In this document: positions 13,292-61,800 of the stretch, in pieces
Numbering within the stretch: the first letter of the stretch is position 1
Layout of the letters: each line of letters begins with the position of its first letter
Assembly: GCF_963677155.1 (NCBI RefSeq)
Contig: NZ_OY781884.1
Span: 4,398,501 to 4,462,500, forward strand
Origin: an uncultured Draconibacterium sp.
GTDB lineage: Bacteria > Bacteroidota > Bacteroidia > Bacteroidales > Prolixibacteraceae
Reading direction: 5' to 3'
Length of the DNA: 64,000 nt
Program-made: the position numbers and the translations under genes
Notes under the pieces: model-generated
The model's database searches: none
The model's input: the letters and a program-made list of their open reading frames with translations, nothing else
Told to the model about the DNA's origin: nothing

Positions 13292-13425
13292 TTTTTCGAA
13301 AAGAAAAAGCGTTCAGAAAAGTGGTGAAAAGTTTAAAAAGGGTATTGCAGAATTAAAAATTAATTCTTTCCTTTGCACCCGCTGATTTGAAACAGCAACG
13401 TTCTAACAAAAGATTGAAATAATAA

Positions 13426-13499
13426 GCCGAATTAGCTCAGTTGGCCAGAGCACGTGATTTGTAATCTCGGGGTCCCCAGTTCGAATCTGGGATTCGGCT
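13426..13499 (+). tRNA. tRNA-Thr (anticodon TGT), copy 1
   Basis: A 74-base cloverleaf: acceptor GCCGAAT/ATTCGGC with discriminator T, D stem GCTC/GAGC, T stem CCCAG/CTGGG with TTCGAAT loop, anticodon TGT in loop TTTGTAA. The anticodon stem CGTGA/TCTCG has a central T-T mismatch. CCA is not encoded. Confidence 0.95.
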
Positions 13500-13515
13500 C
13501 ATTTAAAGATATTTA

Positions 13516-13597
13516 GGGAAGATACCGAAGCGGTCAAACGGGGCAGACTGTAAATCTGTTGGCTCAGCCTTCGTAGGTTCGAATCCTGCTCTTCCCA
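13516..13597 (+). tRNA. tRNA-Tyr (anticodon GTA), copy 1
   Basis: An 82-base class II tRNA with long variable arm: acceptor GGGAAGA/TCTTCCC, discriminator A, anticodon GTA in loop CTGTAAA, T loop TTCGAAT. No complete CCA is encoded (ACAAG follows). Confidence 0.95.
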
Positions 13598-13599
13598 CA

Positions 13600-13632
13600 A
13601 GGGAATAACTAAACAAGTTGTTCCCTTTTTTT
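13600..13632 (+). terminator. Intrinsic terminator after tRNA unit 1
   Basis: GGGAATAAC (13601-13609) pairs with GTTGTTCCC (13617-13625) around a short A-rich loop, followed by seven T. Confidence 0.8.
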
Positions 13633-13700
13633 ATGGTTTTTTATCTTTTGCAGACGCTGATTTAAAACAGCCACGTTCTAAAAATATTTTGAAACAATTA

Positions 13701-13774
13701 GCCGAATTAGCTCAGCTGGCCAGAGCACGTGATTTGTAATCTCGGGGTCCCCAGTTCGAATCTGGGATTCGGCT
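13701..13774 (+). tRNA. tRNA-Thr (anticodon TGT), copy 2
   Basis: Differs from copy 1 by a single base in the D loop (CAGCTGG for CAGTTGG). The same T-T mismatch in the anticodon stem is kept. Second half of the 275-base tandem duplication. Confidence 0.95.
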
Positions 13775-13789
13775 CATTTAAAATACTTT

Positions 13790-13871
13790 GGGAAGATACC
13801 GAAGCGGTCAAACGGGGCAGACTGTAAATCTGTTGGCTCAGCCTTCGTAGGTTCGAATCCTGCTCTTCCCA
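13790..13871 (+). tRNA. tRNA-Tyr (anticodon GTA), copy 2
   Basis: Identical to copy 1 over the mature tRNA. Here the genome continues ACCA after the acceptor stem, so a CCA is present at the 3' end, unlike copy 1. Confidence 0.95.
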
Positions 13872-13880
13872 CCAAGAAAA

Positions 13881-45880: not shown

Positions 45881-46026
45881 TGTTTCCGATTTTAGATTAA
45901 ATTGAGTTTGTAGATTTTGTAATCTCTACATAGCAAATTTAATAAATTTGTGTAAGGTCTGCTTGTTTATTTTATCTCTATGATAAAAATCATAAATGGT
46001 TAATATTGGGTTAATCTAGAACTAAC

Positions 46027-46599
46027 TTACACTAAGCCAGAGAATCCCATAAAAGCCATTGCAAGAATTCCTGCTGCGATTAAGGCAATTGGAGTACCTT
46101 TTAACCCTTTTGGCACATTCTGCAAATCGAGGTGCTCGCGAATACCGGCAAAGATGATCAGTGCCAACCCAAAACCAATGGCATGCGAGGTTGAAAATAT
46201 TACGCCTTCCAACAGGTTGAACTCGTTTTGCACGGTAAGAATTGCAACACCTAAAATAGCACAGTTGGTTGTAATAAGCGGAAGGAAAATTCCCAGTGCC
46301 TGGTAGAGTGGAGGACTTACTTTTTTCAGAATAATCTCCACCATTTGTACCAACGATGCGATGACTAAAATAAAGGCTATGGTTTGTAAAAATCCTAATC
46401 CGAATTTTTCCAACACATAGTTTTGTATCAGGTAAGTTACAATTGTTGCCAGAATCATTACAAAGGCAACAGCGCCGGTCATACCAATACCGGTCGACAC
46501 TTTTTTGGAAACTCCCAAAAACGGGCAGATTCCCAAAAACTGCATTAAAACAATGTTGTTTACAAGTATGGCGCCTATTACAATTACTAAATAGTTCAT
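46027..46599 (-). CDS. rnfA: Rnf electron transport complex subunit A
   Basis: 190 residues, six transmembrane helices. The start carries NNIVLMQFLGICPFLGVSKK, the conserved cluster-binding cysteine region shared by RnfA and RnfE, and the central TTNCAILGVAIL gives the second one. An excellent ribosome site (GGAGGA) precedes the ATG. Last gene of the rnf operon. With RnfE it forms the membrane core that holds an Fe-S centre and passes electrons across the membrane. Confidence 0.95.
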   Translation of the reverse strand: MNYLVIVIGAILVNNIVLMQFLGICPFLGVSKKVSTGIGMTGAVAFVMILATIVTYLIQNYVLEKFGLGFLQTIAFILVIASLVQMVEIILKKVSPPLYQALGIFLPLITTNCAILGVAILTVQNEFNLLEGVIFSTSHAIGFGLALIIFAGIREHLDLQNVPKGLKGTPIALIAAGILAMAFMGFSGLV

Positions 46600-46610
46600 C
46601 TTCTATCCTC

Positions 46611-47195
46611 CTAATTCTTTTTCATTCGGTTGATCAATGCAATCAGGTATCCCAAAACAATAAATGCTCCGGGTGCCAGCACAAATACAAGAGTTACGTA
46701 ATTCTCGGGGTAAATGGTAATGTTGAATAATTTACCGCTTCCGAGAATTTCTCTGATACTTCCCAGTAAAACCAGGGCGAAAGTAAATCCTAAACCAATT
46801 CCAAGCCCATCGATAGCTGAAGAGCCAACATTGTTTTTTGAGGCGAAAGCTTCGGCGCGACCTAATACAATACAGTTTACCACGATTAACGGAATAAACA
46901 AGCCGAGGCTTTTGTACAATGCAGGAACAAAAGCCTGCATCAACAATTGTACTACCGTAACAAATGCGGCAATAATTACAATAAAACTCGGAATTCTAAC
47001 TTTTTCAGGAATAACATTTTTTACCAACGAGATAACGATGTTCGACATCATTAAAACAAATGTTGTTGCAAGTCCCATTCCCAGTCCGTTAATGGCCGAT
47101 GATGTTACCCCAAGAGTAGGGCACATTCCGAGTACCAGAACAAATACCGGATTTTCCTTTATAAAACCTTTTGTAAAATTTTTCCACTGATTCAT
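46611..47195 (-). CDS. rnfE: Rnf electron transport complex subunit E
   Basis: 194 residues, six helices. [28 protein letters not shown] at the N-terminus and [20 protein letters not shown] in the middle are diagnostic for RnfE. It is homologous to RnfA and inserted in inverted topology. It lies 11 bases upstream of rnfA and 9 after rnfG in a tight operon. Confidence 0.95.
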
Positions 47196-47204
47196 AACAC
47201 GAAA

Positions 47205-47807
47205 TTATTGTCCGGAATCTCCGGTGGTTTTATGGTTTTCGTAAGTACTGTATGCTCTTCTTAATGCATCAAGAAAAGCGCGTGAGCTAATTGTAGAGGC
47301 AGTAATCGCGTCAATGTCTCCACCATCTTTCGATACGGTAAAATTGGTCGTTTCAGGGTTTTTCCCGATTACATATTGATTTGGTTTTTCCGGATTGTTG
47401 AACCAAACCGTCATTTTTGATCCTAACCCGGGAGTTTCGGCATGTTCCAAAACGGAGTACCCCGAAAAGTTACCGTCTTTATCAATACCAGCCATAATGG
47501 AAATGAATCCGCTAAAACCACTTTTTGTATAGGTTTTTATAGCTGTTCCAACCAATTCGCCATTTTTATAGGCTGGGAAGAATTCCAGAGAGTCTTGTCC
47601 TTCTCCCGGACTAAAGACCATTGTTTCTCCCAACTCGTCAAATTCGGGCAATACTGTTTTTATTGCTTCGGTTTGTGCTTTTAATTTTGCCACTTCGATA
47701 GGGCCTTTTGTAAAATCGTATACAAAACCCAAAACTGCCGCAGCAATACCTGTTACCAGAACAAGTGTAAGCACCATATTTATAAAACTCGATTCTCGTT
47801 TTGCCAT
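47205..47807 (-). CDS. rnfG: Rnf complex subunit G (covalent FMN)
   Basis: 200 residues from the ATG at 47807 (MAKRESSF), which has GGAGGA 8 bases upstream; a TTG further upstream is not needed. One N-terminal membrane anchor (about 12-32), then an FMN-binding domain on the outer face. The C-terminal DAITASTISSRAF corresponds to the S/T-GAT-type flavinylation motif, with a Thr to carry FMN. GLGSKM in the middle is conserved. It starts 1 base after the rnfD stop. Confidence 0.94.
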   Translation of the reverse strand: MAKRESSFINMVLTLVLVTGIAAAVLGFVYDFTKGPIEVAKLKAQTEAIKTVLPEFDELGETMVFSPGEGQDSLEFFPAYKNGELVGTAIKTYTKSGFSGFISIMAGIDKDGNFSGYSVLEHAETPGLGSKMTVWFNNPEKPNQYVIGKNPETTNFTVSKDGGDIDAITASTISSRAFLDALRRAYSTYENHKTTGDSGQ

Positions 47808-47808
47808 T

Positions 47809-48786
47809 TTACTGTCCTCCAAATCGTTTAGGTTTAATATACATATTGATCAGCGGCACAAACGCATTCATAATCAGAATTGCGAACGAAATTCCTTCGG
47901 GGTAAGCGCCAAACATACGAATGGAGATGGTGATCAACCCAATTCCAATACCGTAAATCAATTGTCCTTTTCCGGTCATTGGAGAAGTTACCATATCGGT
48001 TGCCATAAATATGGCTCCCAACATTAAACCTCCCGTAAAAATATGGTAAACCGGGTTTACATACATCTCAGGATTTACCATCCAGAAAATACCCGAAACA
48101 ACCAAAACAGTGAGTATAATCGATACCGGCGTTTGCCAGGTAATCACTTTTTTCCACAGCATGTAAAGTCCGCCTATAATCAGTAAAATTGCTGAAATTT
48201 CACCCAGCGATCCCTGGTTTAACCCAATAGCCATATCGCTTAGGTCGGGTAGTCCTTTAAGTTGCGAAACCGGGATTCCGTTTTTAATTCCTTCTTTGAT
48301 TACAGCCAGTGGTGTTGCTGCCGATACCGCATCGATACCCGAAGTTCGTATTGCCGGCCACGATGTCATTTGTACCGGGAACGAGATCAACAGGAAAACC
48401 CTGCCTACCAAAGCCGGGTTAAAAACGTTCGATCCTAAACCTCCAAACGATAGTTTCCCAACTCCCATGGCTGCAATGGCACCAATAATAATGATCCACC
48501 AGGGAAGACTTGCGGGCACATTAAATGCTAAAAGTACTCCGGTAATTAAGGCTGAACCATCGGTAATACTGGGCTTAACATTCATAATATATTTTTGAAT
48601 GAGGAATTCGATCGCCAAACAGGACAGGACTGAAATTAATCCAACCCGAACGGCATCGAGGCCAAACATATAAATACCCCAGATCATGGCCGGAATCATC
48701 GCATAAACCACCCGAAGCATAATCTTCTGGGTTGATTCGCTCGAATGAACGTGCGGTGATGGTGAAACTGTTAATAATTTACTCAT
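47809..48786 (-). CDS. rnfD: Rnf complex subunit D (covalent FMN, membrane)
   Basis: 325 residues with about nine helices. DAVSAATPLAVIKEG holds the Thr that carries covalent FMN (family motif SGATPL). LSFGGLGSNVFNPALVGRVFLLISFP and MATDMVTSPMTGKGQLIYGIGIG are diagnostic for RnfD/NqrB. It is separated from rnfC by 122 bases that contain a palindromic repeat, the only large gap in the operon. Confidence 0.95.
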   Translation of the reverse strand: MSKLLTVSPSPHVHSSESTQKIMLRVVYAMIPAMIWGIYMFGLDAVRVGLISVLSCLAIEFLIQKYIMNVKPSITDGSALITGVLLAFNVPASLPWWIIIIGAIAAMGVGKLSFGGLGSNVFNPALVGRVFLLISFPVQMTSWPAIRTSGIDAVSAATPLAVIKEGIKNGIPVSQLKGLPDLSDMAIGLNQGSLGEISAILLIIGGLYMLWKKVITWQTPVSIILTVLVVSGIFWMVNPEMYVNPVYHIFTGGLMLGAIFMATDMVTSPMTGKGQLIYGIGIGLITISIRMFGAYPEGISFAILIMNAFVPLINMYIKPKRFGGQ

Positions 48787-48818
48787 TACTCAGTTGTTTG
48801 TTTTTCTTTTCTTTTTGT

Positions 48819-48897
48819 CATTTCTACGACGAAGGAGGAGAAATCTCTACCAAGATTGAGACAGATTCCTCTGTGGTTCCTTCTTCGGAATGACAAA
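48819..48897. repeat. Palindromic intergenic repeat inside the rnf operon
   Basis: TGTCATTTCTACGACGAAGGAGGA at the left pairs imperfectly with TCCTTCTTCGGAATGACA at the right, enclosing GAAATCTCTACCAAGATTGAGACAG. From memory, elements of this form (TCATTTCGACGAAGGAGG...) are dispersed in Bacteroidota. Transcribed, it would fold into a long hairpin between rnfC and rnfD. Confidence 0.7.
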
Positions 48898-48908
48898 TGG
48901 TTTGATTT

Positions 48909-50240
48909 TTATTTTTTACGTGAACGAATCATCGCTCCAACTTTTCCTTTTCCAAAACGGATGTAATCGAGCAGCGGACGGCTTGACGGACAAGTGTAAC
49001 TGCATGAGCCACATTCAATACAATCCATTATGCGTTCGTTTTCTGCACGATCGAAAATTTGTTTTTCACCCAATGTCATCAGCAGGTAAGGTTCCAGTCC
49101 CATTGGGCAAACCGATGTACAACGCGAGCAGCGAATACAGGCTTGTATTTCTTCGCGTTTACTTTCCTCTTCCTGCATCAGAAGAAGTCCTGAAGTTCCT
49201 TTTGTTACCGGAACATCGAGCGATGCAATGGCGCGTCCCATCATTGGGCCACCACTTATAATTTTTCCTGTATTTTCAGGAAGACCGCCGGCAGCTTCAA
49301 GCAACTCGGATGTCGCAGTACCAACACGTACCATAAAATTCGATGGTTTTTCAACGCCTTTTCCGGTTACGGTAACCACGCGTTCAACCAATGGCTTATT
49401 TTTCTGAATGGCTTCGTAAACGGCAAAAGCAGTACCGACATTACTTACCACTGCACCAACTGCAATAGGCAAGGCGCCCGAAGGAACTTCTTTTCCTGTA
49501 ACAGCATTGATGAGTTGTTTTTCGCCTCCCTGCGGGTATTGTACTTTAAGTGGCTGAACGCTCACTCCTGTATACGCAGAACATTTCTCATTCAGCAGTT
49601 TAATGGCATCGGGCTTGTTATTTTCAATACCGATAACTGCTTTGTCAACGCCCATTGCTTTCATCAGCAACTGGATTCCCACCATTATTTCGTCGGCTTT
49701 TTCAAGCATCAAACGGTGATCCGAAGTGAGGTAAGGTTCGCACTCTACGCCGTTAATCAACAGCACTTCTGCTTTCATTCCTTTTGGCGGAACCAGTTTC
49801 ACGTGGGTAGGGAAGGTTGCACCACCCAAACCAACGATTCCGGCTTCCTGAATCTTTTTCACGATTTCAGATCCGTCAACGGAAATTTCTTTTACCAAAT
49901 CTTCCGAACGGTCAATGCTTTCTTCCCATTCATCGCCTTCAACAGCGATAAAAATGCCTTGTTTGGGATAACCCGAACTGTCGGCTGAAAAATCGACCTT
50001 GGTAACTTTTCCCGATACCGATGAATGGATATTTGTAGAAACAAAACTGCTGCTTTGTGCAATTACCTGTCCTACTTTAACCTCGTCGCCTTTTTTTACT
50101 ACCGGAGTGGCCGGCGCACCAATGTGCTGAGCTACCGGAATAAACACTGTTTTTGGAAGTGGCAGAACCTCAATCTTTTTATCTTTCGATAATTTATTTT
50201 CGGGAGGATGTACTCCGCCAATTTTGAACGTCTTCAACAT
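48909..50240 (-). CDS. rnfC: Rnf complex subunit C (NADH/flavin and Fe-S)
   Basis: 443 residues. GGVHPPENK at the start, the flavin/NADH-binding Rossmann-like region (GIVGLGGATFPTHVK), an SLBB domain, and two [4Fe-4S] motifs near the C-terminus (CIRCSRCTSVCP and CIECGSCSYTCP). Peripheral cytoplasmic subunit that reduces NAD+. The length is typical of the short Bacteroidota form without the long C-terminal repeats of enterobacteria. The stop is followed by the repeat before rnfD. Confidence 0.95.
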   Translation of the reverse strand: MLKTFKIGGVHPPENKLSKDKKIEVLPLPKTVFIPVAQHIGAPATPVVKKGDEVKVGQVIAQSSSFVSTNIHSSVSGKVTKVDFSADSSGYPKQGIFIAVEGDEWEESIDRSEDLVKEISVDGSEIVKKIQEAGIVGLGGATFPTHVKLVPPKGMKAEVLLINGVECEPYLTSDHRLMLEKADEIMVGIQLLMKAMGVDKAVIGIENNKPDAIKLLNEKCSAYTGVSVQPLKVQYPQGGEKQLINAVTGKEVPSGALPIAVGAVVSNVGTAFAVYEAIQKNKPLVERVVTVTGKGVEKPSNFMVRVGTATSELLEAAGGLPENTGKIISGGPMMGRAIASLDVPVTKGTSGLLLMQEEESKREEIQACIRCSRCTSVCPMGLEPYLLMTLGEKQIFDRAENERIMDCIECGSCSYTCPSSRPLLDYIRFGKGKVGAMIRSRKK

Positions 50241-50246
50241 CCTGTA

Positions 50247-51113
50247 TTAATTTACTGGTTCAGTTTCTTTTTTTACTTCTGGTTTCACTTTCCGCGGAGG
50301 GAAGTTCTCTTCGATGATTGCACCTGTTGGGCAAACTGCTACACATTTACGGCACAGTTTACACTTGTCGGAATCAATGTATGCCAGATTGTTTTCCATT
50401 ACAATAGCATCAAACGGACATTCTTTGAAACACTTACTGCACCCGATACAAGCTACCTTACAAGCTTTACGCGCTACTCCTCCCTTATCCTGGTTGCGAC
50501 ACGATACCACAACCTTCCGGTTTTTAGGCATCTTTTTGCGTAACTCTATAAGGTTTTTCGGACAAGCATCAACGCAGGCTCCACAGGCCACACATTTATC
50601 GTCGATAATTTCCGGGATTCCGGTTTCGGGATGCATTACAATGGCATCGAAATCGCAGGCATCATAACAATCGCCGTAACCTAAACAGCCAAACTGGCAC
50701 CCGGATTCGCCGCTGTAAACCGATGATGCGATAGCGCAGGTAGTTGCCCCATCGAAACTACTGGTTTTCGGGCGTTGATCGCAGGTGCCGTTACAACGAA
50801 TGTAAGCCACACGCGGATCTTTTTTGACGGCTTCAAGCCCCAGGATCGAAGCCACGTTGTTCATGGTTTGGTTTCCGCCAACCGGACAGTTTAAATCGCC
50901 TAGTTCGCTGGCTTTAACACAGGCTTCGGCAAAAGCTCTACATCCTGCATAGCCACAACCTCCACAGTTAGCTCCCGGCAATGCTTCGTCAACATCGTCG
51001 ATGCGCGGATCTTCAACAACTTTGAATTTCTGTGCCACAAAATATAGAATTACCGCTGCTGCGGCGCCAATTACGGCTAATGTGACAATTGTATATACAA
51101 CAGTGATACTCAT
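50247..51113 (-). CDS. rnfB: Rnf complex subunit B (ferredoxin-like)
   Basis: 288 residues. One N-terminal membrane helix, the cluster domain LPGANCGGCGYAGCRAFAEAC (about 45-65), then a run of [4Fe-4S] motifs: CATC-like region about 130-165, CVACGACVDACP, CIGCSKCFKECP and CKLCRKCVAVCP. It is the entry point for electrons from ferredoxin. It lies 6 bases upstream of rnfC and 1 base after rseC. Confidence 0.95.
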   Translation of the reverse strand: MSITVVYTIVTLAVIGAAAAVILYFVAQKFKVVEDPRIDDVDEALPGANCGGCGYAGCRAFAEACVKASELGDLNCPVGGNQTMNNVASILGLEAVKKDPRVAYIRCNGTCDQRPKTSSFDGATTCAIASSVYSGESGCQFGCLGYGDCYDACDFDAIVMHPETGIPEIIDDKCVACGACVDACPKNLIELRKKMPKNRKVVVSCRNQDKGGVARKACKVACIGCSKCFKECPFDAIVMENNLAYIDSDKCKLCRKCVAVCPTGAIIEENFPPRKVKPEVKKETEPVN

Positions 51114-51114
51114 T

Positions 51115-51522
51115 TTATTCAGCGTTTTCTTCGAGTTCGAATTTCAATACTTTTTTTAATAAATGCCTAAAAAAATATAATGTTATATAGTATGGTACAA
51201 GAATGAATAAGGAGAGGAGCCCCGATTTTAGTTCGTCACCGGTAACTTCTAAGGCGATAATCAGGGTGGACAAAACAACAAAAAACGGAACTACATAGCC
51301 CCAGGTAAGTGCAGTAAAGCCTTTTGATTGTTTAAAAAGAATGGTAACCTCGTCGCCAATTTTGTAGTTGCCTTTATATTCGGTAACCTCAATTTCCTTG
51401 TCCTGGAAATCGGAAACTGAACAGGCGCCCTGTGCGTGACAAGTTGAGCAGGCCGACTGGCTTACAATATTCACAGTAAGCGAAGCATCTTTTATTGCTT
51501 TAACAAATCCCTTATGTCGAAT
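51115..51522 (-). CDS. rseC: RseC/MucC-type SoxR-reducing system protein with unusual start
   Basis: 119 residues from the first ordinary start, a GTG at 51474. Two C-terminal membrane helices, and four cysteines in ACSTCHAQGACS, the RseC pattern. But family-like coding (HKGFVKAIKDASLTVNIVSQ) continues upstream to 51522, and no ATG, GTG or TTG occurs between there and the in-frame TAG. The codon at 51522 is ATT, a rare start. The limits given include this extension. It is the first gene of the rnf operon, its usual partner in Bacteroidota, probably linked to electron transfer or maturation. Confidence 0.85.
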   Translation of the reverse strand: MRHKGFVKAIKDASLTVNIVSQSACSTCHAQGACSVSDFQDKEIEVTEYKGNYKIGDEVTILFKQSKGFTALTWGYVVPFFVVLSTLIIALEVTGDELKSGLLSLFILVPYYITLYFFRHLLKKVLKFELEENAE

Positions 51523-51812
51523 TGTAGATTCCGTAGCTGTAAATTTTGCTATTTGCAGATGGCAAAACTATATAATAAATTGAATCTCCATATGACAAAA
51601 AAACAATTTTTCTGAAAATATCACTATTTATAAGTAGTCTAATTTAGTTTGTTGAACGTTTCGATAATTAGTTCGAAAAAGAGAGAAAATGTTTTCTTAA
51701 ATTAAGTTCAGATTAAAATTGTAAAGTGTTCTTAAATGTATGGTTTGTGTTGCTAAAGAATAGCTGTCCAATTGTTTAGTGATCATTTTTCTTTGAAAAA
51801 ATGAAAGTGAAA
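51523..51812. other. AT-rich intergenic region between rseC and the KefB remnant
   Basis: 290 bases, strongly AT-rich, containing the rnf promoter region. No gene, hairpin or repeat of merit was found. Confidence 0.5.
51563..51570 (-). promoter_or_regulatory. -7 element upstream of rseC-rnf operon
   Basis: On the minus strand TAGTTTTG fits TAnnTTTG, about 40 bases before the ATT at 51522. A CAAA (TTTG on the minus strand) lies at 51596-51599, farther than the usual spacing, so the -33 element is uncertain. Confidence 0.4.
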
Positions 51813-51950
51813 CTATTTCTCTTTTTTCGCTTCATCTTTCAGCGAATCCACATCCCATGCACAATCTGAATCGTGTATAGAATAGTTTTTCTCGGCCTGT
51901 AGTGTTTCTTTTACCTGTTCCTCAAAGCGACGGGTTTCCTGAATAAATTT
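51813..51950 (-). pseudogene. Duplicated 3' end of the KefB-like antiporter gene
   Basis: Encodes the last 45 residues plus stop of the antiporter at 56238-58130. The block 51829-51950 matches 56254-56375 at 120 of 122 positions with no gaps (differences at 51891 and 51921). The last 16 bases, including the stop, are similar but diverged (ends KKEK instead of KKES). There is no start, and the homology breaks off 5 bases before the stop of the methyltransferase remnant. Confidence 0.9.
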
Positions 51951-51955
51951 TGGGG

Positions 51956-52513
51956 TTACACTTTCTTTACGATCCAGACTTCCTGTTCAAGACTGTATCT
52001 TCTCGGATCTGTTATGTGCTCGACTATCTCAAACTTCTGTAAAAGTTTATTTTTAATAAATTGGGACGGGTGGTACGCCAGAAAATGTTTCTTCCCTTCT
52101 TTGATATTTCCCCGAATGACAATATCTCCATTATTGTATTGCAATAGTTCTGTTTTCAGTAAACGGTTTTACATAATTCTCCATGAGTTGTAAAAATCAG
52201 GATTCCGTCTTTTTTTAATATCCGGTAAAGCTCATTTATCCATGCATAATGCATCGTTTCCGATAGATGCATAAAAATGGAGATGGCATGAATTTCACCC
52301 AACTGATAATAGTGTTGCCAATTAATGTGGTTATAGGCATCAAAAGCCAAACTTTTTGGAGGTGTTATGAAATTTGGATTTTGGCATTTAAATTCACTGT
52401 TTTGTTTTCGGTTCTTTGGTACATGGATAACAAAGAAGGCTGAATTTAATAGCTGCATTAGGTCTAATTTTCGTAGAACTGACTTGATGCGTTCTTTTAA
52501 AGTTATTTTTCAT
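51956..52513 (-). pseudogene. Broken SAM-dependent methyltransferase gene
   Basis: Coding continues from an ATG at 52513 only if one extra A in its poly-A run is ignored: then ITLKERIKSVLRKLDL... through VPKNRKQNSEFK and TPPKSLAFDAYNH. The glycine-rich SAM motif I expected next is missing, and the sequence jumps to HAISIFMHLSE and LYRILKKDGILIFTTHGE. The frame then breaks again (one base lost near 52160), and LLQYNNGD...EVWIVKK follows to a TAA at 51956. Two frameshifts and a core deletion make it inactive. The family resembles methyltransferases of polysaccharide or surface-glycan loci. Confidence 0.75.
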
Positions 52514-52614
52514 TGTTATATATATCATTCTCGAACTAAGTTTTTTTTAGGAGGTTTTTAAAGTTAATCAAAAAAACTGCTAACAACCTGTCTATAACCG
52601 GGGACATCTTTATT

Positions 52615-54552
52615 TCATTGATTTTTGTTAATTATAACTTCAAATGTACTTCCTTTTTCAACTTCAAAATTATCATAAATAGTTAAGCTATTAGTTATAT
52701 CAAGAAACACATTTGAACCGTTAATAATTTTAACAGAACCATGGAATTGACCACCAATATCATCACTATTTATTGATATGTTGTAACCAGATATATATTG
52801 GCTATTACTTAGGAGCTCATTTTGAAGAAAAACATCAACCAAGGCATTATCTATAGTTACAGGTGGACTAGATGGGCCACTGATTAATGCATTAAATTCA
52901 ACTTTATTTACGCCAGAAGCTTGAAAAATATTTGATTTATATAGTGTATAAGAACTTGTTGATGAAGGAGTGAAAGTTCCGATTGAATTACTTCCGACTG
53001 TTAATTGTAAAGTTATTAAACCCGAAACATTCTGTGTAATCAAAGACTTTTTGGCCATAAAAGAAATTGAATAAAAACGATTGCTTGAGAAACTCATTTG
53101 TTGGCTGATTTTATTTCCCTCGTGAAGAAAAGCAGCTTGAATGCCATCTGGAACTTGATATCCTCCATTAAAGACGGAACTATAAAGGTTACAAACTCCT
53201 CCTCCTGCAAAAGTCCAAAAGGACTGCGTTAAACTCGGGGTGTAATAGTAATAATTCTCCTGAGCGATTGGGGATTCGAAACTATAGTTTCGAAATCTTC
53301 CTTCAGTTGATGACGTCGATACTGTTAATATTGGACTTGTACTATTCACTTTAGTTATTGGATCCTGAATCTTTATCTCTATATCATAAATTGTTGAGGA
53401 AGATAGTCCCGATATAGTATAAGATGTTGATGTTGTCGATCCTATATTCTTACCATCGATGTAAATATCATATGTTTGATTCATCAATGGAGCAGTCCAG
53501 GATAAATCTATCGAATTGAACGATATATTTGTAGCAACAAGATTTTTAGGCGAATTATTGTGTATTGCAACTATTTTATTTCTAATGTTTGAAATATTGT
53601 CTATAACTAAATGATAGTCGAACTCATAAACTGATTCTTTTTTTAATTTTTCAAATTTAACAGCGGCAAGATATGATGTCTCAGCATCGTAGGATTCTTT
53701 ATTTTCTGCACCGACCATGCCTTCCGAAAACTGGTGCGCATTAGGGCAATAAACTGCAAGTCCCCAGTTATTATTATCTAAAAAGGCAATCCAGTCTTCG
53801 TCGGAGTAGCGTATCCCCCAACCACTATTTGGATTCCCAGGATCTTTCACTGTATAAGCAGAGTAAGAGATTGGGCTGTTTAAGTTAAATGGAGAACTCC
53901 CCTCGTAGTAACATAGCTTATGTAACGAAGTGATTAATAAGATGGCGGGAATTTCCTGAGGTAAAAATCTATCTTCACCATAAATATTGTCGGTTCTATT
54001 GCACGTCAATTTTCCATGAACTGAGATTGTATTTCCATCTAAAGTAGTCCATTGTTCAATAGTTGCTTCAGCCGGCATATTAGGCATGTCGTACAACATT
54101 GGAATACACTTGGTATAAATGGTATTTCCGGTTTTGTTATAGCTGATTAGTTGCGAATTATTTGAGAAACTGTCACCAGTTTGAACTGGATTCCATCGAA
54201 AAGGAGACCATGTTGGATTTTGTCCTTCACTAAGTCTGTTAACAGCTTCTCCTGCCCAAAATGATGGTGTGATATATCTTCCATTGTCAGAGGTGTTTAC
54301 AAGGTTTCTTGTGTTAGTAGATTTCGAGATGTAACTTATTACTCCTCCTCTATCTTTATCTAACTTCACCTTTAAGTTACTACTGGTTAATTCTATAAAA
54401 TTATTTTGCGAATTCGCATAATTTATTGCTATAAATAAGGTTGAGTAAATTACGAGAGTAATTCTTACTTTAAAAATCGATTTTGCAATAATCGTTAGGT
54501 TTTTTAGTAATGGATTAACAAGTATTGTTGAAATAAAGGTTATTTGTTTCAT
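52615..54552 (-). CDS. Secreted multidomain protein with FN3 domain, AT-rich
   Basis: 645 residues. An N-terminal hydrophobic stretch (about 28-48, ending NYANSQ) is a signal peptide; the true start may be an internal one. Residues about 50-330 form a large beta-rich domain with RGGVISYISKS, FWAGEAVNRLSEGQNPTWSPFRWNPVQ, like galactose-mutarotase-type folds in sugar-active proteins. An FN3 domain (about 338-412), a jelly-roll-like module (about 418-575) and a C-terminal piece like the 3-coathanger stack domain (SLTIYDNFEVEKGSTF) follow. AT-rich, within the island. The function may be carbohydrate binding. Confidence 0.75.
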   Translation of the reverse strand: MKQITFISTILVNPLLKNLTIIAKSIFKVRITLVIYSTLFIAINYANSQNNFIELTSSNLKVKLDKDRGGVISYISKSTNTRNLVNTSDNGRYITPSFWAGEAVNRLSEGQNPTWSPFRWNPVQTGDSFSNNSQLISYNKTGNTIYTKCIPMLYDMPNMPAEATIEQWTTLDGNTISVHGKLTCNRTDNIYGEDRFLPQEIPAILLITSLHKLCYYEGSSPFNLNSPISYSAYTVKDPGNPNSGWGIRYSDEDWIAFLDNNNWGLAVYCPNAHQFSEGMVGAENKESYDAETSYLAAVKFEKLKKESVYEFDYHLVIDNISNIRNKIVAIHNNSPKNLVATNISFNSIDLSWTAPLMNQTYDIYIDGKNIGSTTSTSYTISGLSSSTIYDIEIKIQDPITKVNSTSPILTVSTSSTEGRFRNYSFESPIAQENYYYYTPSLTQSFWTFAGGGVCNLYSSVFNGGYQVPDGIQAAFLHEGNKISQQMSFSSNRFYSISFMAKKSLITQNVSGLITLQLTVGSNSIGTFTPSSTSSYTLYKSNIFQASGVNKVEFNALISGPSSPPVTIDNALVDVFLQNELLSNSQYISGYNISINSDDIGGQFHGSVKIINGSNVFLDITNSLTIYDNFEVEKGSTFEVIINKNQ

Positions 54553-54740
54553 TATTTTACAAAATTGAAAAGTTTTAATGTGTTGATCCTTCTGTTAATA
54601 TTTCTCGACATAATTGGAATCAATATTTTCACTATTCCTGAAATTTTCGTATTCTTTTTTATGTTAAGATATTATTGTGGGAAATAAATCGATAAACATG
54701 ATTGTGTTTTTAGATTTAACTCTGGGCATTAATTGATGAT

Positions 54741-55856
54741 TTATTGTGTCAATAACATCCGTTTAGTATCAACAATGTTTCCGTCAACCATCAGGCTATA
54801 CAAATACATGCCTGCCTTAAATTCATTTCCGTATATGGTTTCGCTTCCATTGCCTTTTTGATAGATATTTATGGTTTTTAGCAATGTGCCAGTCATATTA
54901 AATATATGTAATTGTGCGCTTGTTGCCTGTTGGGGTATTTCGAATTTTATTGTTGTTTGAGACGAGAAAGGATTAGGACTGTTTTGGTAGAGTTTGGCGG
55001 CACTAATGTTGTCGTTAATTTCAATACCTGTAATCGAAGCACTTTTTGTGTCTCCGTTTTTTGCACAACAATCATTTTCCAATGTTTCTATCCGGGCTTC
55101 CAGTTCTTTAATTGCTTCAACAAGCACTGGGATAATTCCAATGTAATCAACACTTAGGAATCCGGAGGAATCTTCTTCTACTAATTCGGGAAATACTTTT
55201 TGAAGATCCTGAGCAACAAAACCGATTCTTGTTTTCTCTGCTAGTGCAGCTTCGTATTTTGCTTTTTGTTTTTTATATTCTTCCTGTGACTTTTTTTCCT
55301 TTTCAGAAGCCTGACCTTCTGCATTAAGAGTTGTTATTTTATCTTTTTTAGGTAAAAGGTTATAGCTTACTCCATCTACTTTCTTTAAGAGCGCTAGCGA
55401 ACTATCTAATTTTTTTATATTTGTTTTTAGCCTTTTGTCTGAAGTAACCGTGAAGCTATTGGCAAGAATACTGCAATTAAAGGTGAACCTGTTGTTATTC
55501 GAGTATTTGTAATATCCAACAACTTCTCCATAGTCACGGGTTAGATAGATTCCTTTTTTTCCATGTAATTGCATGATATCGGAATCTATATTTGTCCCAT
55601 ACTCTCCCAGAAATACATTTCCACCATGCATGGCTATTCGTCCATAATCTCCAATAGCCAGTCTCCCATTGGTTAGCATCGTTCCATAAGTTCCATAAAC
55701 AATTGCGGCAACCTCGCCATTGGCATCATCAGCAGGGCGGTCGCCATTAATTACTACTGTTCCGTCTTGTCTTACTTTTAACGCTTGTGCATTTGTTTTA
55801 GTTGATGAAGCTGTTACTAGTAGGAATATTAAAATTGATATTGTATAATTTTTCAT
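54741..55856 (-). CDS. Surface protein with peptidase S74 chaperone domain and T9SS tail
   Basis: 371 residues. Signal peptide (about 1-23), a repetitive beta-rich stalk (about 25-135, YGTYGTML, GRLAIGDYGRIAMHGG), then the S74 intramolecular chaperone domain (about 137-265) starting SDKRLKTNIKKL with GFVAQDLQKVFPELV and VDYIGIIPVLVEAIKEL. A Lys/Glu-rich insert lies about 170-210. The end (about 288-371, LYQNSPNPFSSQTTIKF to DTKRMLLTQ) is a type A T9SS sorting signal. S74 domains assemble trimeric fibres and cleave themselves, so this is probably a surface-anchored fibre. Island gene, 188 bases upstream of the 645-residue gene. Confidence 0.85.
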   Translation of the reverse strand: MKNYTISILIFLLVTASSTKTNAQALKVRQDGTVVINGDRPADDANGEVAAIVYGTYGTMLTNGRLAIGDYGRIAMHGGNVFLGEYGTNIDSDIMQLHGKKGIYLTRDYGEVVGYYKYSNNNRFTFNCSILANSFTVTSDKRLKTNIKKLDSSLALLKKVDGVSYNLLPKKDKITTLNAEGQASEKEKKSQEEYKKQKAKYEAALAEKTRIGFVAQDLQKVFPELVEEDSSGFLSVDYIGIIPVLVEAIKELEARIETLENDCCAKNGDTKSASITGIEINDNISAAKLYQNSPNPFSSQTTIKFEIPQQATSAQLHIFNMTGTLLKTINIYQKGNGSETIYGNEFKAGMYLYSLMVDGNIVDTKRMLLTQ

Positions 55857-56237
55857 TTTTATTGAATTTTATTTAATGATATTTTTGTAATTGCTTAAAA
55901 GGATTCCCCTCGCTGCCAGACGAAAACCTTTGCCTCCTCGTGTGGGGAATAACGGGGAGGCATTTAGCCTATTTTAATTTGGAAGAATGTGTGAATGGTT
56001 ATCATGGTTGTTAATCGTTTTTGGTGGCTGCAATAGTTCCGATATTACAGGGTTTGTTTTCAAATATAAAAAGAAGTTATGTTTAACGCAAGTGATGGAT
56101 TCGTTTTTTTACAATATGATTGAATTATAGTAAGTTGGATGGGGTGGCGTAGTTTGTTGGTTCCAGTCTGTTAAAAAGGTTGACGTGTTCAGACCTTAAA
56201 GGTTTCAAAAACGTTTAAGGTCTGGTTAATAGTTGGT
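55857..56237. other. Intergenic region at the right edge of the island
   Basis: 381 bases. It contains a GC-rich stem-loop at 55932-55961 (GCCTCCTCG/CGGGGAGGC) and a palindrome at 56190-56224. No gene was found. The kefB 3' end lies directly to the right. Confidence 0.5.
56190..56224. repeat. Palindromic stem-loop downstream of the antiporter gene
   Basis: CAGACCTTAAA pairs perfectly with TTTAAGGTCTG around GGTTTCAAAAACG. It lies 13 bases past the KefB stop, but without a T-run on the minus strand. Possibly a dispersed palindromic repeat. Confidence 0.55.
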
Positions 56238-58130
56238 TTATGATTCCTTTTTTGCTTCATCTTTCAGCGAATCCACATCCCATGCACAATCTGAATCGTG
56301 TATAGAATAGTTTTTTTCGGCCTGTAGTGTTTCTTTTACCTGTTCTTCAAAGCGACGGGTTTCCTGAATAAATTTGCTTTGGTCTTCCAGCCAGTGTTGG
56401 TAAAGTTCTTCGGTTACCTGGTGTTCGTGGTGTTTAAAAGTACGTGTGGCGCGGTAGGCTTCATATTTCGAAAATCCCAATTCAACCAGAGCGTTGTTAC
56501 CTAACTCTGCTGCCGAGTGGAAGTTCTCGCGTTGTACTTTGTTGATATTTAAATTCAGGTATTCAAATACATGAAATATATCGTTGGCACGCGCCAGTAT
56601 TTTTACGTGCGGGTATTTTTTGCGCACAACTTCAGCAACTTTCAACGCATTTTCATGTTCGGCCATACTTAATATAAGTAAGCGGGCTTTTTCAATTCCG
56701 GCTTTTTCGAGCATGGTAGGGCGTGTAATATCACCAAAATACAGCTTGAAACCATATTTACGCAGCGTTTCAACATTCGATGGGTTGTTATCAAGGATGG
56801 TAACTTTTATTCCATTGGCTATAAGAATTCGTCCAACTGTTAATCCAAAGCGTCCAAATCCGGCAAGAATTACCGGAGTTTCTTCATCTTCAATCTCGTC
56901 ATATTCCTGTTTGTTTTGCCAGCGTGCCAAAATCGGGCTCACTGCTTTGTCGTTAAAAATTAGCAGCAGTGGAGAAATTGCCATCGATAAGGTAACCACC
57001 AGCAGCAACATTCCTGAAGTTTGCTCGTCGAACAGTTTGTTTTGTTTCGAGAAGGATATGAGAACAAAAGCAAATTCGCTGGCCTGGGCGAGTAAAAACG
57101 CAAAAAGAAACTCGAACCCTTTTTTTAGCCTGAATATTCGTCCTAAAATTAAAAGAACTACAAATTTTATAACTATTAAAAGCAACACAAAACCAATAAT
57201 CAACCAGGGATTTTCAATCAGCAAATTAAAATTTATACCGGCACCAACGGAAATAAAAAAGAGTCCGAGCAGTAAGCCCTTAAACGGATCTATAGTCGTT
57301 TCCAACTCGTGGCGGTATTCGCTGTCGGCTAAAACCACACCGGCAATAAAGGTTCCCAGTGCCGGAGACAGCCCAATGGCATCCATACCCAGCGCAATGC
57401 CAATAACCATAAGTAGTGCCAATGCTACAAAAACCTCGTGTAAACCTGTTTCGGCAACTAAACGAAAAATATGACGTGCAGCAAAACGACCAATAATTAC
57501 CATAACTGTAATGGCGCCGATAATTATTAATAGTTGCAGCCAGCCGGGTAACTGAGCTACCTGTCCAATGCTTTCTATCGAGGTGTCGGAAAGAGCAGCT
57601 GGAGTTCCAAGAGTTGCAATAAGAGGCAGTAATGCAAGAATTGGAATGACTGCCATATCCTGAAACAGTAAGACCGAAAAAGCTGAACGGCCTGCAATAT
57701 TGCGCATTAATCCTTTTTCGCTTAAAGTTTGCAGTACAATTGCTGTTGACGAAAGCGCAAGAATGAGCCCTATGGCAACTGCACGGTTTAGCTGAAAGTT
57801 AAAAAACAAGGCAACACCAGTAATAATTCCGGCAGTTATGAGTACTTGCAAGCCTCCCAATCCGAAAATGTTACGCCGCATTTTCCATAATAGTTTAGGC
57901 TCCAGTTCCAGCCCAATAATAAAAAGCATAAGCACAACTCCAAACTCGGCAAAGTGCATAACCTCTCCGGCTTCGTTCCCTACCAATCGTAAAACAAAAG
58001 GGCCAATAATGATTCCGGCAAGCAGGTAGCCCAGTACTGAGCCAAGACCCAGTTTTTTGGCGATTGGAACAGAAACAACGGTTGCTCCAAGGTAAATTAA
58101 TGCGTTTAAAAAGAATTCCTGATTATGCAT
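56238..58130 (-). CDS. KefB/CPA2-type monovalent cation:proton antiporter with TrkA-N domain
   Basis: 630 residues from the ATG at 58130, which overlaps the stop of the oxidoreductase gene by 8 bases (GATGCATAA). A Na+/H+-exchanger-like membrane domain (about 1-385, twelve or so helices, LFIIGLELEPKLLWKMR, ALSSTAIVLQTLSEKG) precedes a TrkA-N/RCK domain (about 405-525) with the nucleotide site VILAGFGRFGLTVGRIL, then a helical tail. In E. coli such systems release K+ upon binding of glutathione conjugates; here the ligand is unknown. Its last 45 codons are duplicated at 51813. Confidence 0.92.
   Translation of the reverse strand: MHNQEFFLNALIYLGATVVSVPIAKKLGLGSVLGYLLAGIIIGPFVLRLVGNEAGEVMHFAEFGVVLMLFIIGLELEPKLLWKMRRNIFGLGGLQVLITAGIITGVALFFNFQLNRAVAIGLILALSSTAIVLQTLSEKGLMRNIAGRSAFSVLLFQDMAVIPILALLPLIATLGTPAALSDTSIESIGQVAQLPGWLQLLIIIGAITVMVIIGRFAARHIFRLVAETGLHEVFVALALLMVIGIALGMDAIGLSPALGTFIAGVVLADSEYRHELETTIDPFKGLLLGLFFISVGAGINFNLLIENPWLIIGFVLLLIVIKFVVLLILGRIFRLKKGFEFLFAFLLAQASEFAFVLISFSKQNKLFDEQTSGMLLLVVTLSMAISPLLLIFNDKAVSPILARWQNKQEYDEIEDEETPVILAGFGRFGLTVGRILIANGIKVTILDNNPSNVETLRKYGFKLYFGDITRPTMLEKAGIEKARLLILSMAEHENALKVAEVVRKKYPHVKILARANDIFHVFEYLNLNINKVQRENFHSAAELGNNALVELGFSKYEAYRATRTFKHHEHQVTEELYQHWLEDQSKFIQETRRFEEQVKETLQAEKNYSIHDSDCAWDVDSLKDEAKKES
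56254..56375 (-). repeat. Direct repeat, copy B (inside the antiporter gene)
   Basis: Second copy of the 122-base repeat whose first copy is 51829-51950; same orientation, 4425 bases apart, two mismatches. It forms the C-terminal coding end of the intact antiporter gene. Confidence 0.9.
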
Positions 58131-58719
58131 CGTGCTCAATTATTTCGTTCATGTATTCCATCGAATTCAGGCGTTCAGTTTCAATTTTGTTATCGCGAAG
58201 CAACTTTATTACCGATTTGTAATCGTCGGCATACTTTTTTATCTGATTGCCGTTCAGTGTATGCGAACCATGTACAACAAAAGGTGGCAGGTTTGTCATT
58301 CGGCAAAGACTCGCCGACTGTATAAAAGGTGCCAGAAACTGGTTTATAGTGTACCGGTTTTTTCCATCGGCACTGTATACTTCTTTTCTTCCGCCGGTTG
58401 AAATGCACGACATGGCCCATTTCCCTTCCAATGCCCGTCCGTGTGTGCCATATGCAAAACCATGTTGCAGCACCAAATCCATCCATTCTTTGATAAGAGC
58501 CGGAGCACTGTACCAGTAAAACGGATGGTGCCAGATAATGATATCGTGCTCGGTCAATAGTTTTTGCTCAACAGGTACATCAATAAAAAAATCGGGATAC
58601 TTTTCATACAAATTATTAATGGTAACGCCTTCCAAATCTTTTATTGCTTCTATTAGTGTTTTGTTGATAAGCGACTTTTGAAAGGCCGGATGTGCAAAAA
58701 GTATTAATATTTTTTTCAT
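58123..58719 (-). CDS. KefF/MdaB-like NAD(P)H:quinone oxidoreductase, antiporter partner
   Basis: 198 residues with a flavodoxin-like fold: KKILILFAHPAFQKSLINK at the start, HHPFYWYSAPALIKEWMDLVLQHGFAYG in the middle, and SCISTGGRKEVYS. It matches the KefF/KefG group that binds FMN and activates the adjacent KefC/KefB channel. The overlapping, translationally coupled gene order with the antiporter is the same as for kefF-kefC of E. coli. Cytoplasmic, attached to the antiporter. First gene of the two-gene operon. Confidence 0.9.
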   Translation of the reverse strand: MKKILILFAHPAFQKSLINKTLIEAIKDLEGVTINNLYEKYPDFFIDVPVEQKLLTEHDIIIWHHPFYWYSAPALIKEWMDLVLQHGFAYGTHGRALEGKWAMSCISTGGRKEVYSADGKNRYTINQFLAPFIQSASLCRMTNLPPFVVHGSHTLNGNQIKKYADDYKSVIKLLRDNKIETERLNSMEYMNEIIEHDA

Positions 58720-58842
58720 CTGCTCGAACTGTTTTGTGGCAATTTACTGAATAAATTTATGAAACATAAATAAACTAAATTATAGAAGTGGTTACAAATT
58801 TCTTATTTTTATAATCTTATATGAAATCATAAAACTCAGAAC

Positions 58843-61800
58843 GTGAAAAAGTTTATTATCCCCTTGTTTTTTCTGCTTCTTATTGTTGTTTCATGCAAAG
58901 AAAATAACAAAACAAATGTTGCCCCAGAAGTGGAATTTGCGCATTATGTACAAGCATATACCAGTGGTGTAATTTCCAGTAGAACAACAATCTCAGTATA
59001 CCTGACTAAACCAGTGGAGTTGAATGGCCCGGTAGGCGAACTCTTCGAGTTTGAACCAAACATAAAGGGAGAAACCGTACAGGTTGGCGATCGCATGTTT
59101 GAGTTTCGGTCTTCTGAGCCGCTAAAACAAGGTACTGAATACGAAGCCAGATTTTTCCTGGGAAAGGTAATGAACGTAAAAACCGATTTGCAGGAAATGC
59201 CATTCCGGTTTTCAACGGTGCCGCAGTCGTTTACTGTTACGGTTGAAGGTTTAACGAACTATGAGAATTTAGGAGCAACCCAGATGCAGTTAAACGGTTA
59301 TGTTTTAACTGCCGATGTTGCCGAGGCTCTGGCTGTTGAAAACATACTGACAACCCGTTTGGACGGCGAAGAACTGCCCGTAACCTGGAATCACGAAACA
59401 GGCGGACGTAAACACTTTTTTACTGTCGATAGTATTTCCCGCTTGCAAGATGATGCCGGGAAGCTTGAAGTTAAATGGGATGGACGTTTGCTTGATATAG
59501 ATGATGCCGGAATGAAAGAACTTGAAGTTCCTGCATTAAGCGATTTTAAAGTACTTGAGGCAAATGTGGTTCAGCAACCCGAACAATGTGTGAATATTCG
59601 TTTTTCGGATGCGCTGCTAAAAACTCAGGATCTGAACGGTTTGATTGAGTTGGATAATAGCCGTGATTTAAGATTTGAATTGGATGGTAACCTGATTAAA
59701 ATTTGGACTGATAAACGAATTACCGGTGAAGTAAATTTAACTGTTCACAAAGGAATTAAAAGTAGCAATTATGCACGTCTGAAATCGGGAGAAAACTTTT
59801 TGCTGCAATTTACGAATGCTGAACCAAAGGTGAGGTTATTGGGGAAAGGTGTAATTGTTCCGCAAAGTGAGTCGATGATTTTTCCATTTGAAGCTATCAG
59901 CTTAAATGCTGTTGATGTACGGATTATACAGATTTTTAAAGATAATGTTGCTCAGTTTTTTCAGGACAATAGTATTGATGGAAACGCCAGTTTAAAACAA
60001 GTTGGACGTTTAGTCTACGAAAAAAAGATTGATCTCTATTCTGATGAATCAATTAATTATAACAACTGGAACACCTTTAAAATTGATCTGGCCAAAATGA
60101 TAGATATTGAGCAAGGAGCCATTTATAGAGTGGAGTTGCGTTTTCGCAAAGAGTATTCGTTATACGATTGCCCTGATAACGAAACGGACGAAAGTCTACA
60201 GGAAACAGATTTTAACCAGAAGGAAGACTATCAAAACAATTGGGATACTCCCGGCTGGTACAGCACGTACTATTATCCCGAGGGGTATCGTTGGAGCGAA
60301 CGTGATAATCCATGCCACGTTTCATATTACAATTACGATCGGTTTGTTAGCAAAAATATTATGGCTTCGCAATTGGGGATTGTAGCCAAAGAAGGAAAAA
60401 ATCACCGAATGTTTTTTGCTGTCTCCAATTTGTTAAATACAGCTCAGGAAAGCGATGTTGATTTGAAGCTATACAACTTTCAACATCAGCTAATTGAAAG
60501 TGTAAAAACTGATGCGCGAGGTTTGGCAGAAGTGGACTTAAAGAAAAAACCATTTTTGCTGATTGCTCAAAAAGGAAATCAGTTTGGCTATTTGCGTTTG
60601 GATGATGGAACTTCGCTATCGGTAAGTAATTTTAATGTTTCAGGACAGGAAATAACCGATGGAATGAAAGGCTTTATTTATGGAGAGCGCGATGTTTGGC
60701 GTCCCGGCGATACGTTGTTTCTCAACTTTATTTTGGAGACAAATGCTGCCCGTCCCGAGAATCATCCGGTAATTTTTAGTCTGATTAACCCAAAAGATCA
60801 ACAGGTAGAACGACGTGTTGTAACCAACAACGAAAATGGATTTTACCAGTTAACAACAACTACCGAAAAAGATGCACCAACCGGAAACTGGCGCGCAGAA
60901 GTTCAGGTTGGTAACAGCCGGTTTTCTAAACGGGTAAAAATTGAAACAATAAAACCCAATCGGTTAAAAATTGATATTGATCTGCCCGAAGACAAAGTGC
61001 TTGATGAAAGTAATAAAGTAGTACCGATTACAGCTAGTTGGTTGCACGGTAGCCCCGCAAAATCGCTAAAAGCAAAAGTTGAGGTAATGTTGGCTAAAAC
61101 CAATACAACATTTGAAGATTATCAAAACTACACATTTACCGATCCGGCAACAAGTTATGCACAAAAAGAGCAAACCATTTTTGATGGAAAACTGAACGAA
61201 GCCGGAAAAGCAAAAGTTCCTTTCGTATTGGAAGGATTGGATAATGCACCGGGAATGCTGAATGTTTGGTTTACATCGCGGGTGTTCGAAAGTGGAGGAG
61301 ATTTTAGTACATCGATAAGCAATGCTAAATATTCTCCTTTCGAATCGTATGTTGGTGTGCGAATGCCTGAATCGGACGATAACTGGTACACCACCGATAC
61401 CGATTATTTACCGGAGATTGTTACGGTAGACAAAAATGGAAAACCGGTTTCTGGAGATGACTTGGAAGTGCGCTTGTATAAAATCAACTGGCGCTGGTGG
61501 TGGGAGTCGGGTTCTGAAAACCTGGCACATTACGTTTCGGGACGATATTATCAGCCGGTGAGTAATTGGAATATTTCCGATGCGAAACACAAGTCGCAAA
61601 TAAAACTCAATGTAAAATACAACGATTGGCAAGACAATGGCCGGTACTTTTTGTGGGTGAAAGACAACACTTCGGGGCATTCTACCGGAATTACTTTTTA
61701 CATGTCGAAATGGGGAAGTTGGCGCTCGGATGGAATGGAGCAGGGGGCAACTATGCTTAGTGTGCGAACTGATAAAGAAAAATACAATGTGGGTGACGAT

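Follow-up and report, generated by a model that had tools for sequence, protein, structure and literature searches.

A duplicated kefB gene end around an AT-rich island of an uncultured Draconibacterium: probable origin by ordinary recombination in a variable cargo slot

In the genome of an uncultured Draconibacterium sp. (assembly GCF_963677155.1, contig NZ_OY781884.1) a stretch of 64,000 nucleotides, here called the window, carries an AT-rich island between a gene for a KefB-type antiporter (kefB) and rseC, with which the rnf group downstream begins. The final 138 nt of kefB are present twice in the same direction with a spacing of 4,425 bp, as copy A at the end of the intact gene and as copy B on the rseC side of the island. 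The anatomy of the locus is that of a filled version followed in tandem by an empty version, with one novel joint between them. Comparison with related genomes suggests that ordinary recombination at a variable slot was responsible and not a dedicated mobile element, and a Campbell-type single crossover, by which a circularised fragment of the filled locus version would have joined the empty one, is given roughly an even chance of having been the route.

The repeat and the two versions of the locus

The two copies differ at 8 positions over the 138 nt, four of these falling in the first 131 nt and two in the first 122 nt, which gives identities of 127/131 over the core bases and 120/122 over the first 122 nt, and each has its own stop codon, with copy A ending in KKES-TAA and copy B in KKEK-TAG. 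The similarity of the pair is far above chance (E 1.6e-57 in the 5.27-Mb genome) and a third match to the kefB tail is not found in this genome, a single contig of 5,268,975 bp. The original prediction, made from the letters of the window, had the last 46 kefB codons occurring twice in the same orientation, each with its own stop, and its coordinates and its 120 of 122 identical bases are exact by alignment. The contents it gave to the AT-rich island, a broken methyltransferase and two genes for secreted proteins, are confirmed, the GC content being 34.0% in the island, 41.9% in kefB and 42.6% in the region 46027-51543.

To place the two copies a search set of 61 genomes was used, including the genome itself, of which 37 belong to one genus (Draconibacterium/Maribellus) and 24 to the same order, the relatives including Draconibacterium orientale, D. 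sediminis, D. mangrovi, D. aestuarii and several Maribellus. Copy B aligns in full, over 138/138 columns, with the close relatives G030, G024, G013 and G002. The alignment of copy A spans 137 columns with G036 and G003, where the gene has a QS-stop ending, and ends early with the ten closest relatives. The spacer beside copy B aligns closely in ten relatives with an empty site, and near rseC alone in G036 and G003. As this spacer aligns with that of empty-site relatives, copy B is the native end, with copy A and the DNA downstream of it being the newcomer or a hybrid. The novel joint is not present in the 12 aligned relatives.

A screen of the genome for direct repeats of at least 88% identity and at least 80 bp, lying 200-20,000 bp apart, covered 860 kb of the 5.27 Mb (800 kb plus the window, minus an overlap of ~4 kb) and gave 56 rows, among which the kefB pair was the sole short gene-end repeat around unrelated DNA that was recognised; four non-kefB pairs and one multi-copy family were examined in detail, with the rest judged by length, spacing and multiplicity.

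The kefB-rseC interval in related genomes

Thirty loci were compared, and 29, all of the genus, have a kefB end and rseC, whilst seven of the 36 genus relatives gave none. The distance between kefB and rseC, taken from tblastn ends, is 126 to 540 bp in 24 of the 29 relatives. In the other five (D. aestuarii, G007; Maribellus sediminis, G020; G004; G028; G032) it is 1.1-3.6 kb, the slot being filled with cargo of 1.1-3.6 kb whose genes are partly shared and partly different. An empty site, with a single kefB end beside the rnf genes and no island, had been predicted, and it is found in all 12 of the closest relatives, where the single kefB end lies ~280 bp from rseC(-rnf) and the KefB orthologues have 92-98% identity. 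In a midpoint-rooted FastTree tree of KefB, RnfB and RnfC from 28 genomes, whose branch support was not inspected, the lineage studied here lies amid these 12 empty-slot genomes and is the sole filled one within the clade of 13.

The kefB tail DNA was matched in 23 of the 61 genomes, with two matches in the present genome alone. Of the 22 relatives with a match, 21 have it at the kefB end and G035 has 26 bp on a different contig, and 38 of the 60 are without a match. In none of the 36 other genus genomes was a second kefB tail found, and a full-length protein search that recovered copy B gave no further tail in any relative. A duplicated kefB end is likewise absent from the five other filled slots.

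Parts of the island are related to what is found in those other slots. The leader, a stretch of DNA at the kefB side of the island (55967-56071), has one match at E<=1e-5 in the 60 other genomes, with up to 12 first-look candidates scored per genome, and this match lies between kefB and rseC in D. aestuarii, where kefB is unduplicated. Its orientation is the same, and it is 140 nt past the kefB stop there and 167 nt past it here. The other match better than 1e-5 that the search gave was in G001, to the neighbouring stretch 55875-55961, with no S74 gene listed beside it. The gene in the island that encodes an S74 chaperone-of-endosialidase protein has a decayed relative of its C-terminal part in the kefB-rseC interval of M. 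sediminis, the sole one stronger than 1e-20 among three matches in that genome. Relatives closer than this one are found in G012, G016 and G021, the best being that of G012 at 63% (40 of the 60 relatives searched). As a unit the whole island was found in none of 40 relatives (24 of the 36 of the genus and 16 of the order, with up to 7 candidates scored per genome), the longest piece being 1,005 bp at 65% in G012, which is the S74 gene.

The occupants of the other slots share genes with each other, with a gene of 240 amino acids found in G007, G032 and G004, and a protein resembling those of the type IX secretion system (T9SS), as judged by eye, common to G020 and G032. Since slot DNA and genes are common to other filled intervals, the kefB-rseC interval is a variable cargo slot with turnover in Draconibacterium/Maribellus, in which one pair of genes frames cargo that differs between relatives, and in the five other filled cases the cargo is without such a repeat.

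Across the slots of G007, G032, G004, G020 and G028 the cargo includes proteins with T9SS-like ends, by eye, and one protein of the G020 slot has what we take to be an HExxH motif.

The nearest relative of the present genome shifts along kefB, rseC and rnf when followed in 200-bp windows. From 46000 to 58900 of the window it shifts along flavodoxin, kefB, rseC and rnf, with G030 nearest for most of kefB and G006, G024 and G034 for parts of rseC and rnf, and this shifting suggests recombination between species.

Table 1. Position of the features of the kefB-rseC locus within the window
Feature	Position	Strand	Description
Intact kefB-type antiporter gene	56238..58139	-	633 amino acids; PF00999 E 7e-57, PF02254 E 1e-22
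Copy A, kefB 3' end in use	56238..56375	-	Final codons (ES-stop) and downstream DNA unlike the native type
Inverted repeat, terminator-like hairpin	56190..56224	.	Member of a dispersed genus repeat
Leader DNA	55967..56071	-	Homologous to kefB-downstream DNA of D. aestuarii (G007), 78% over 105-110 bp
S74 chaperone-of-endosialidase protein with T9SS type A sorting tail	54741..55856	-	Domain matches
Secreted-type protein	52615..54552	-	Mutarotase-like beta-sandwich at the N-terminus (model), FN3 domain, weak 3-coathanger sorting domain at the C-terminus
Decayed class I methyltransferase remnant	51951..52458	-	Frameshifted, natural C-terminus; stop codon 5 bp before copy B
Novel joint	51950..51951	.	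5 bp past the methyltransferase stop codon, joined to the first of the final 46 kefB codons (stop counted)
Copy B, displaced native kefB 3' end	51813..51950	-	Startless; native kefB-rseC spacer follows
Native kefB-rseC spacer, conserved region upstream of rseC	51544..51812	-	Aligned with 12 empty-site relatives
rseC reading frame, first gene of downstream rnf group	51115..51543	-	PF04246 E 7e-21

A proposed origin by a single crossover

The filled and empty versions could have been brought together in a small number of steps. A donor fragment with the final 131 bp of kefB and ~4.3 kb of cargo, derived from a close relative whose slot was filled, would have entered the cell, and ligation of its ends into a circle would have made the joint between the methyltransferase stop and kefB. 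A RecA-type single crossover inside the 131-bp kefB end would then integrate the circle. The result would be an intact kefB with the end and the downstream DNA of the donor, and the cargo would now separate it from the native end and its spacer. None of this requires an integrase, and the site would become empty again if the two repeats were to cross over with each other.

The locus has the form that such an event should leave, in that direct repeats of the crossover region flank the insert and the flanks are otherwise unchanged. It is also apparent that the end of copy A and its flank look non-native, with a QS/ES-type end common to G036 and G003 and a leader that is found in one other place, the slot of D. 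aestuarii. At the four sites in the first 131 nt where A and B differ, G029 has the states B, B, A, A, which is what one crossover with a G029-like donor would give. The empty sites of the 12 closest relatives, the decayed S74 relative in the M. sediminis slot, the genes common to other slots, the recombinase searches without a find in the island and the E. coli precedent described below are likewise in favour, and of the routes considered a circularised filled-slot fragment recombining inside the 131 bp is the best fit to the anatomy.

A number of observations weigh against the single crossover. In no genome searched does the whole island stand beside a single A-type kefB end and the donor was not found, whilst the leader in common with D. 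aestuarii is just 105 bp at 78%. Copies A and B resemble each other (127/131) more closely than either resembles any relative sampled, so that the donor would have been very close, or gene conversion would later have evened the copies. The four sites at which A and B differ are too few to prove a crossover, and their states are mixed across the relatives other than G029. Finally, it has been suggested by the authors of a study of gene-end duplication in E. coli, in the sections available (Amarir-Bouhram et al., PMC3240628), that naturally transformable species may prevent circularisation or import single-stranded DNA, a limit that counts against the model only if entry was by transformation.

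A bolder version of the single crossover, to which we give very little credence, would make the island a recombinase-free cassette. The kefB end it carries would be a portable homology arm, allowing entry by a single crossover at kefB in any relative and exit via the 131-bp repeat, with kefB and the DNA upstream of rseC-rnf kept intact and host RecA alone circulating the cargo of secreted proteins.

Alternative explanations

The nearest rival to the single crossover, although rather unlikely, is homology-facilitated illegitimate recombination (HFIR) or some other one-sided illegitimate joint, in which a linear filled-slot fragment or a sister chromosome would have recombined in kefB and been joined end-to-end to an empty-slot kefB 46 codons before its end. 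One illegitimate joint (51950/51951) and one homologous exchange would account for everything, and HFIR has been put forward to account for the displaced 3' regions of type VI secretion system (T6SS) clusters and rhs loci in Vibrio, according to the part of that paper at hand (PMC5361080). However, a duplication by this means requires the joint to be upstream of the end of the anchor, and HFIR is predicted to delete, as it did in four of four HFIR clones in the available sections of the E. coli study, where duplications were ascribed to circles and a single crossover (PMC3240628).

An element with an integrase targeting the 3' end of kefB, which would have inserted, restored the gene end with the copy that it carried and then lost its integrase or never had one, is less probable again. 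The geometry does fit integration at a 3' end, with att-like repeats at both ends of the island, the gene rebuilt, the native end displaced and a clean empty site in relatives, and islands with integrases at the 3' ends of trmE and yicC are documented in the accessible portion of PMC8409611. The original prediction saw no integrase, and no recombinase domain is found in the three scanned open reading frames of the island (Pfam), whilst a genome-wide search that covered PF00589 alone, and not serine recombinases, transposases or other families, gave 13 matches with none in the window and the nearest ~92 kb from the island. The 60 other genomes hold no second tail of such a kind, the same ends are not found at other sites or genomes (61 genomes, with the island sought as a unit in 40 relatives), and the expectation that other elements would end in the same sequence fails, since none with the 138-base end occurs in the 61 genomes. 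The DNA at the kefB side of the island has its homologue in the slot of D. aestuarii, where kefB ends only once, and does not look like the border of an element, and the five other filled slots are without a kefB-end repeat. The recombinase that was not found, the homology of the leader and the relative of the S74 gene in the M. sediminis slot all speak against an integrative element, and this reading is not supported by the genome comparison. What remains of the original prediction is the insertion at the 3' end of kefB with a rebuilt end (copy A) and a displaced native end (copy B), without the integrative element as its cause, and its remark that the element may have been captured passively is the closest to the single crossover preferred here.

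It is very unlikely that the end of kefB, or kefB as a whole with a later deletion, was first duplicated in tandem and that cargo was then separately inserted between the copies. Whilst the repeat is direct, with orientation and phase equal, two events would be needed with an insertion exactly at the copy boundary, and the last codons of copy A and its downstream DNA differ in type from those of copy B. Tandem duplication was the rival named beside the original prediction, and no tandem kefB or kefB end is found in the genus members examined, some of whose assemblies are fragmentary. An assembly artefact fusing the haplotypes of two strains can hardly be credited, for although two versions of the locus do stand one behind the other, the assembly is a single contig of 5.27 Mb, 99.99% complete and 0.34% contaminated, and the reads behind a closed assembly would be expected to exceed the 131-bp repeat in length.

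Comparison with known systems

A close parallel is with recircularised DNA in E. coli, where a linearised plasmid bearing a gene end gave 56 of 60 clones with a polymerase chain reaction product diagnostic of duplication of the gene end, the duplications measuring 109-950 bp in 14 sequenced clones, and where the authors ascribe these to a single crossover with a circular molecule, most likely a recircularised one (available sections of PMC3240628). Both there and here a duplicated gene end flanks the insert, at 131-138 bp in the present case, although the E. coli DNA was a laboratory plasmid delivered by conjugation and the island holds natural cargo.

Hotspots without mobile elements (Oliveira et al. 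2017, PMC5635113, as far as its text was available) also have variable cargo between fixed genes, here kefB and rseC-rnf, with no recombinase found, and exchange by recombination in the flanking core genes is proposed for them. Double homologous recombination of that sort would leave no repeat, whereas a 131-bp duplicated gene end is present on one side here. At the Vibrio T6SS and rhs loci, in the part of PMC5361080 at hand, a new 3' module likewise stands beside a conserved region with the old 3' part shifted downstream, but an immunity gene or orphaned 3' region is kept there and a 46-codon antiporter remnant here. The elements at the 3' ends of trmE and yicC share insertion at a gene end with repeats at both ends, and differ in encoding an integrase, with SGI1 also encoding an excisionase, where none is found in the island (PMC8409611, accessible portion).

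The island is a clean natural case of a duplicated gene end around an island that need not mean an integrase element, and it is the empty sites and the common slot DNA that allow the two readings to be weighed. It further marks out, in Draconibacterium/Maribellus, a variable cargo slot that lies between kefB and the rnf genes. The evidence as a whole suggests a tidy but fairly ordinary case. A narrow search of the literature found no publication on a genomic island in Draconibacterium, from which no broader absence from print is claimed.

Cargo of the island

Both larger genes of the island may encode surface or secreted carbohydrate-related proteins, to which the T9SS-type C-termini and the predicted fold point. 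In the FN3-containing protein the C-terminal sorting domain (GCX_COOH) scored 15.8 bits, under the cut-off of 26, and the model of the N-terminal part is of modest confidence, with a mean pLDDT of 64. A fold search with this model gave the alpha-mannosidases Bl_Man38A-C at the top, followed by a beta-galactosidase and galactose mutarotases, with a YidC periplasmic domain also in the first ten matches, and the superpositions were poor (root mean square deviation about 6-12). With modest confidence, the N-terminal part resembles the mutarotase-like sandwich of sugar-active enzymes, a likeness on which the verdict on the island does not depend. Relatives of this domain of ~320-340 amino acids are found at other loci of G001, G007, G017 and G022 (40 of the 60 relatives searched), and the three that were scanned have no Pfam match.

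The methyltransferase remnant matches an intact homologue of 296 amino acids in G050 at 64% over 45 amino acids, and the C-termini are alike. Its name rests on its look and on this homologue, as a piece of 100 amino acids has no Pfam match. On the other side of the locus the listed start of rseC is a GTG at 51474, and homology reaches further 5'.

The hairpin past the end of kefB (56190-56224) has matches in all 7 of the genomes searched, with 2-14 in each at E<=1, weak in several. At that threshold D. orientale (G006) has 14 members of the family, from weak to strong, and G029 has 8, and in the slot of G007 a 33-bp stretch of a hairpin is present twice (94%). A specific tie between the hairpin and the 240-amino-acid gene of the other slots was considered and is ruled out by the hairpin being a dispersed repeat family. 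The sole relative of that gene found in the present genome is distant (28%) and ~1.5 Mb away.

The island gave no match to Rfam, nor to the plasmid collection with which it was searched. There are no tRNAs near it, the window having four, and at 13369-13872 of the window a tRNA-Thr/tRNA-Tyr pair is tandemly duplicated (93.5% over 230 bp).

A possible integron elsewhere in the genome

At 4305-4339 kb and 1151-1167 kb of the genome many imperfect palindromes of 125-150 bp, running from TAACGG to GTGTTA or TTTGTTA, lie between small single open reading frames, and these presumably resemble the attC sites of integrons. A tyrosine recombinase adjoins the array at 1151-1167 kb, which passes NCBIfam NF040815 (XerA/integron integrase) at 222 bits for a cut-off of 220 and does not pass the cut-off of TIGR02249. 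As Salinibacter ruber is given as the one complete integron in Bacteroidetes proper in the sections available of the IntegronFinder 2.0 paper (PMC9024848), the palindrome arrays and the recombinase may together be an unusual chromosomal integron.

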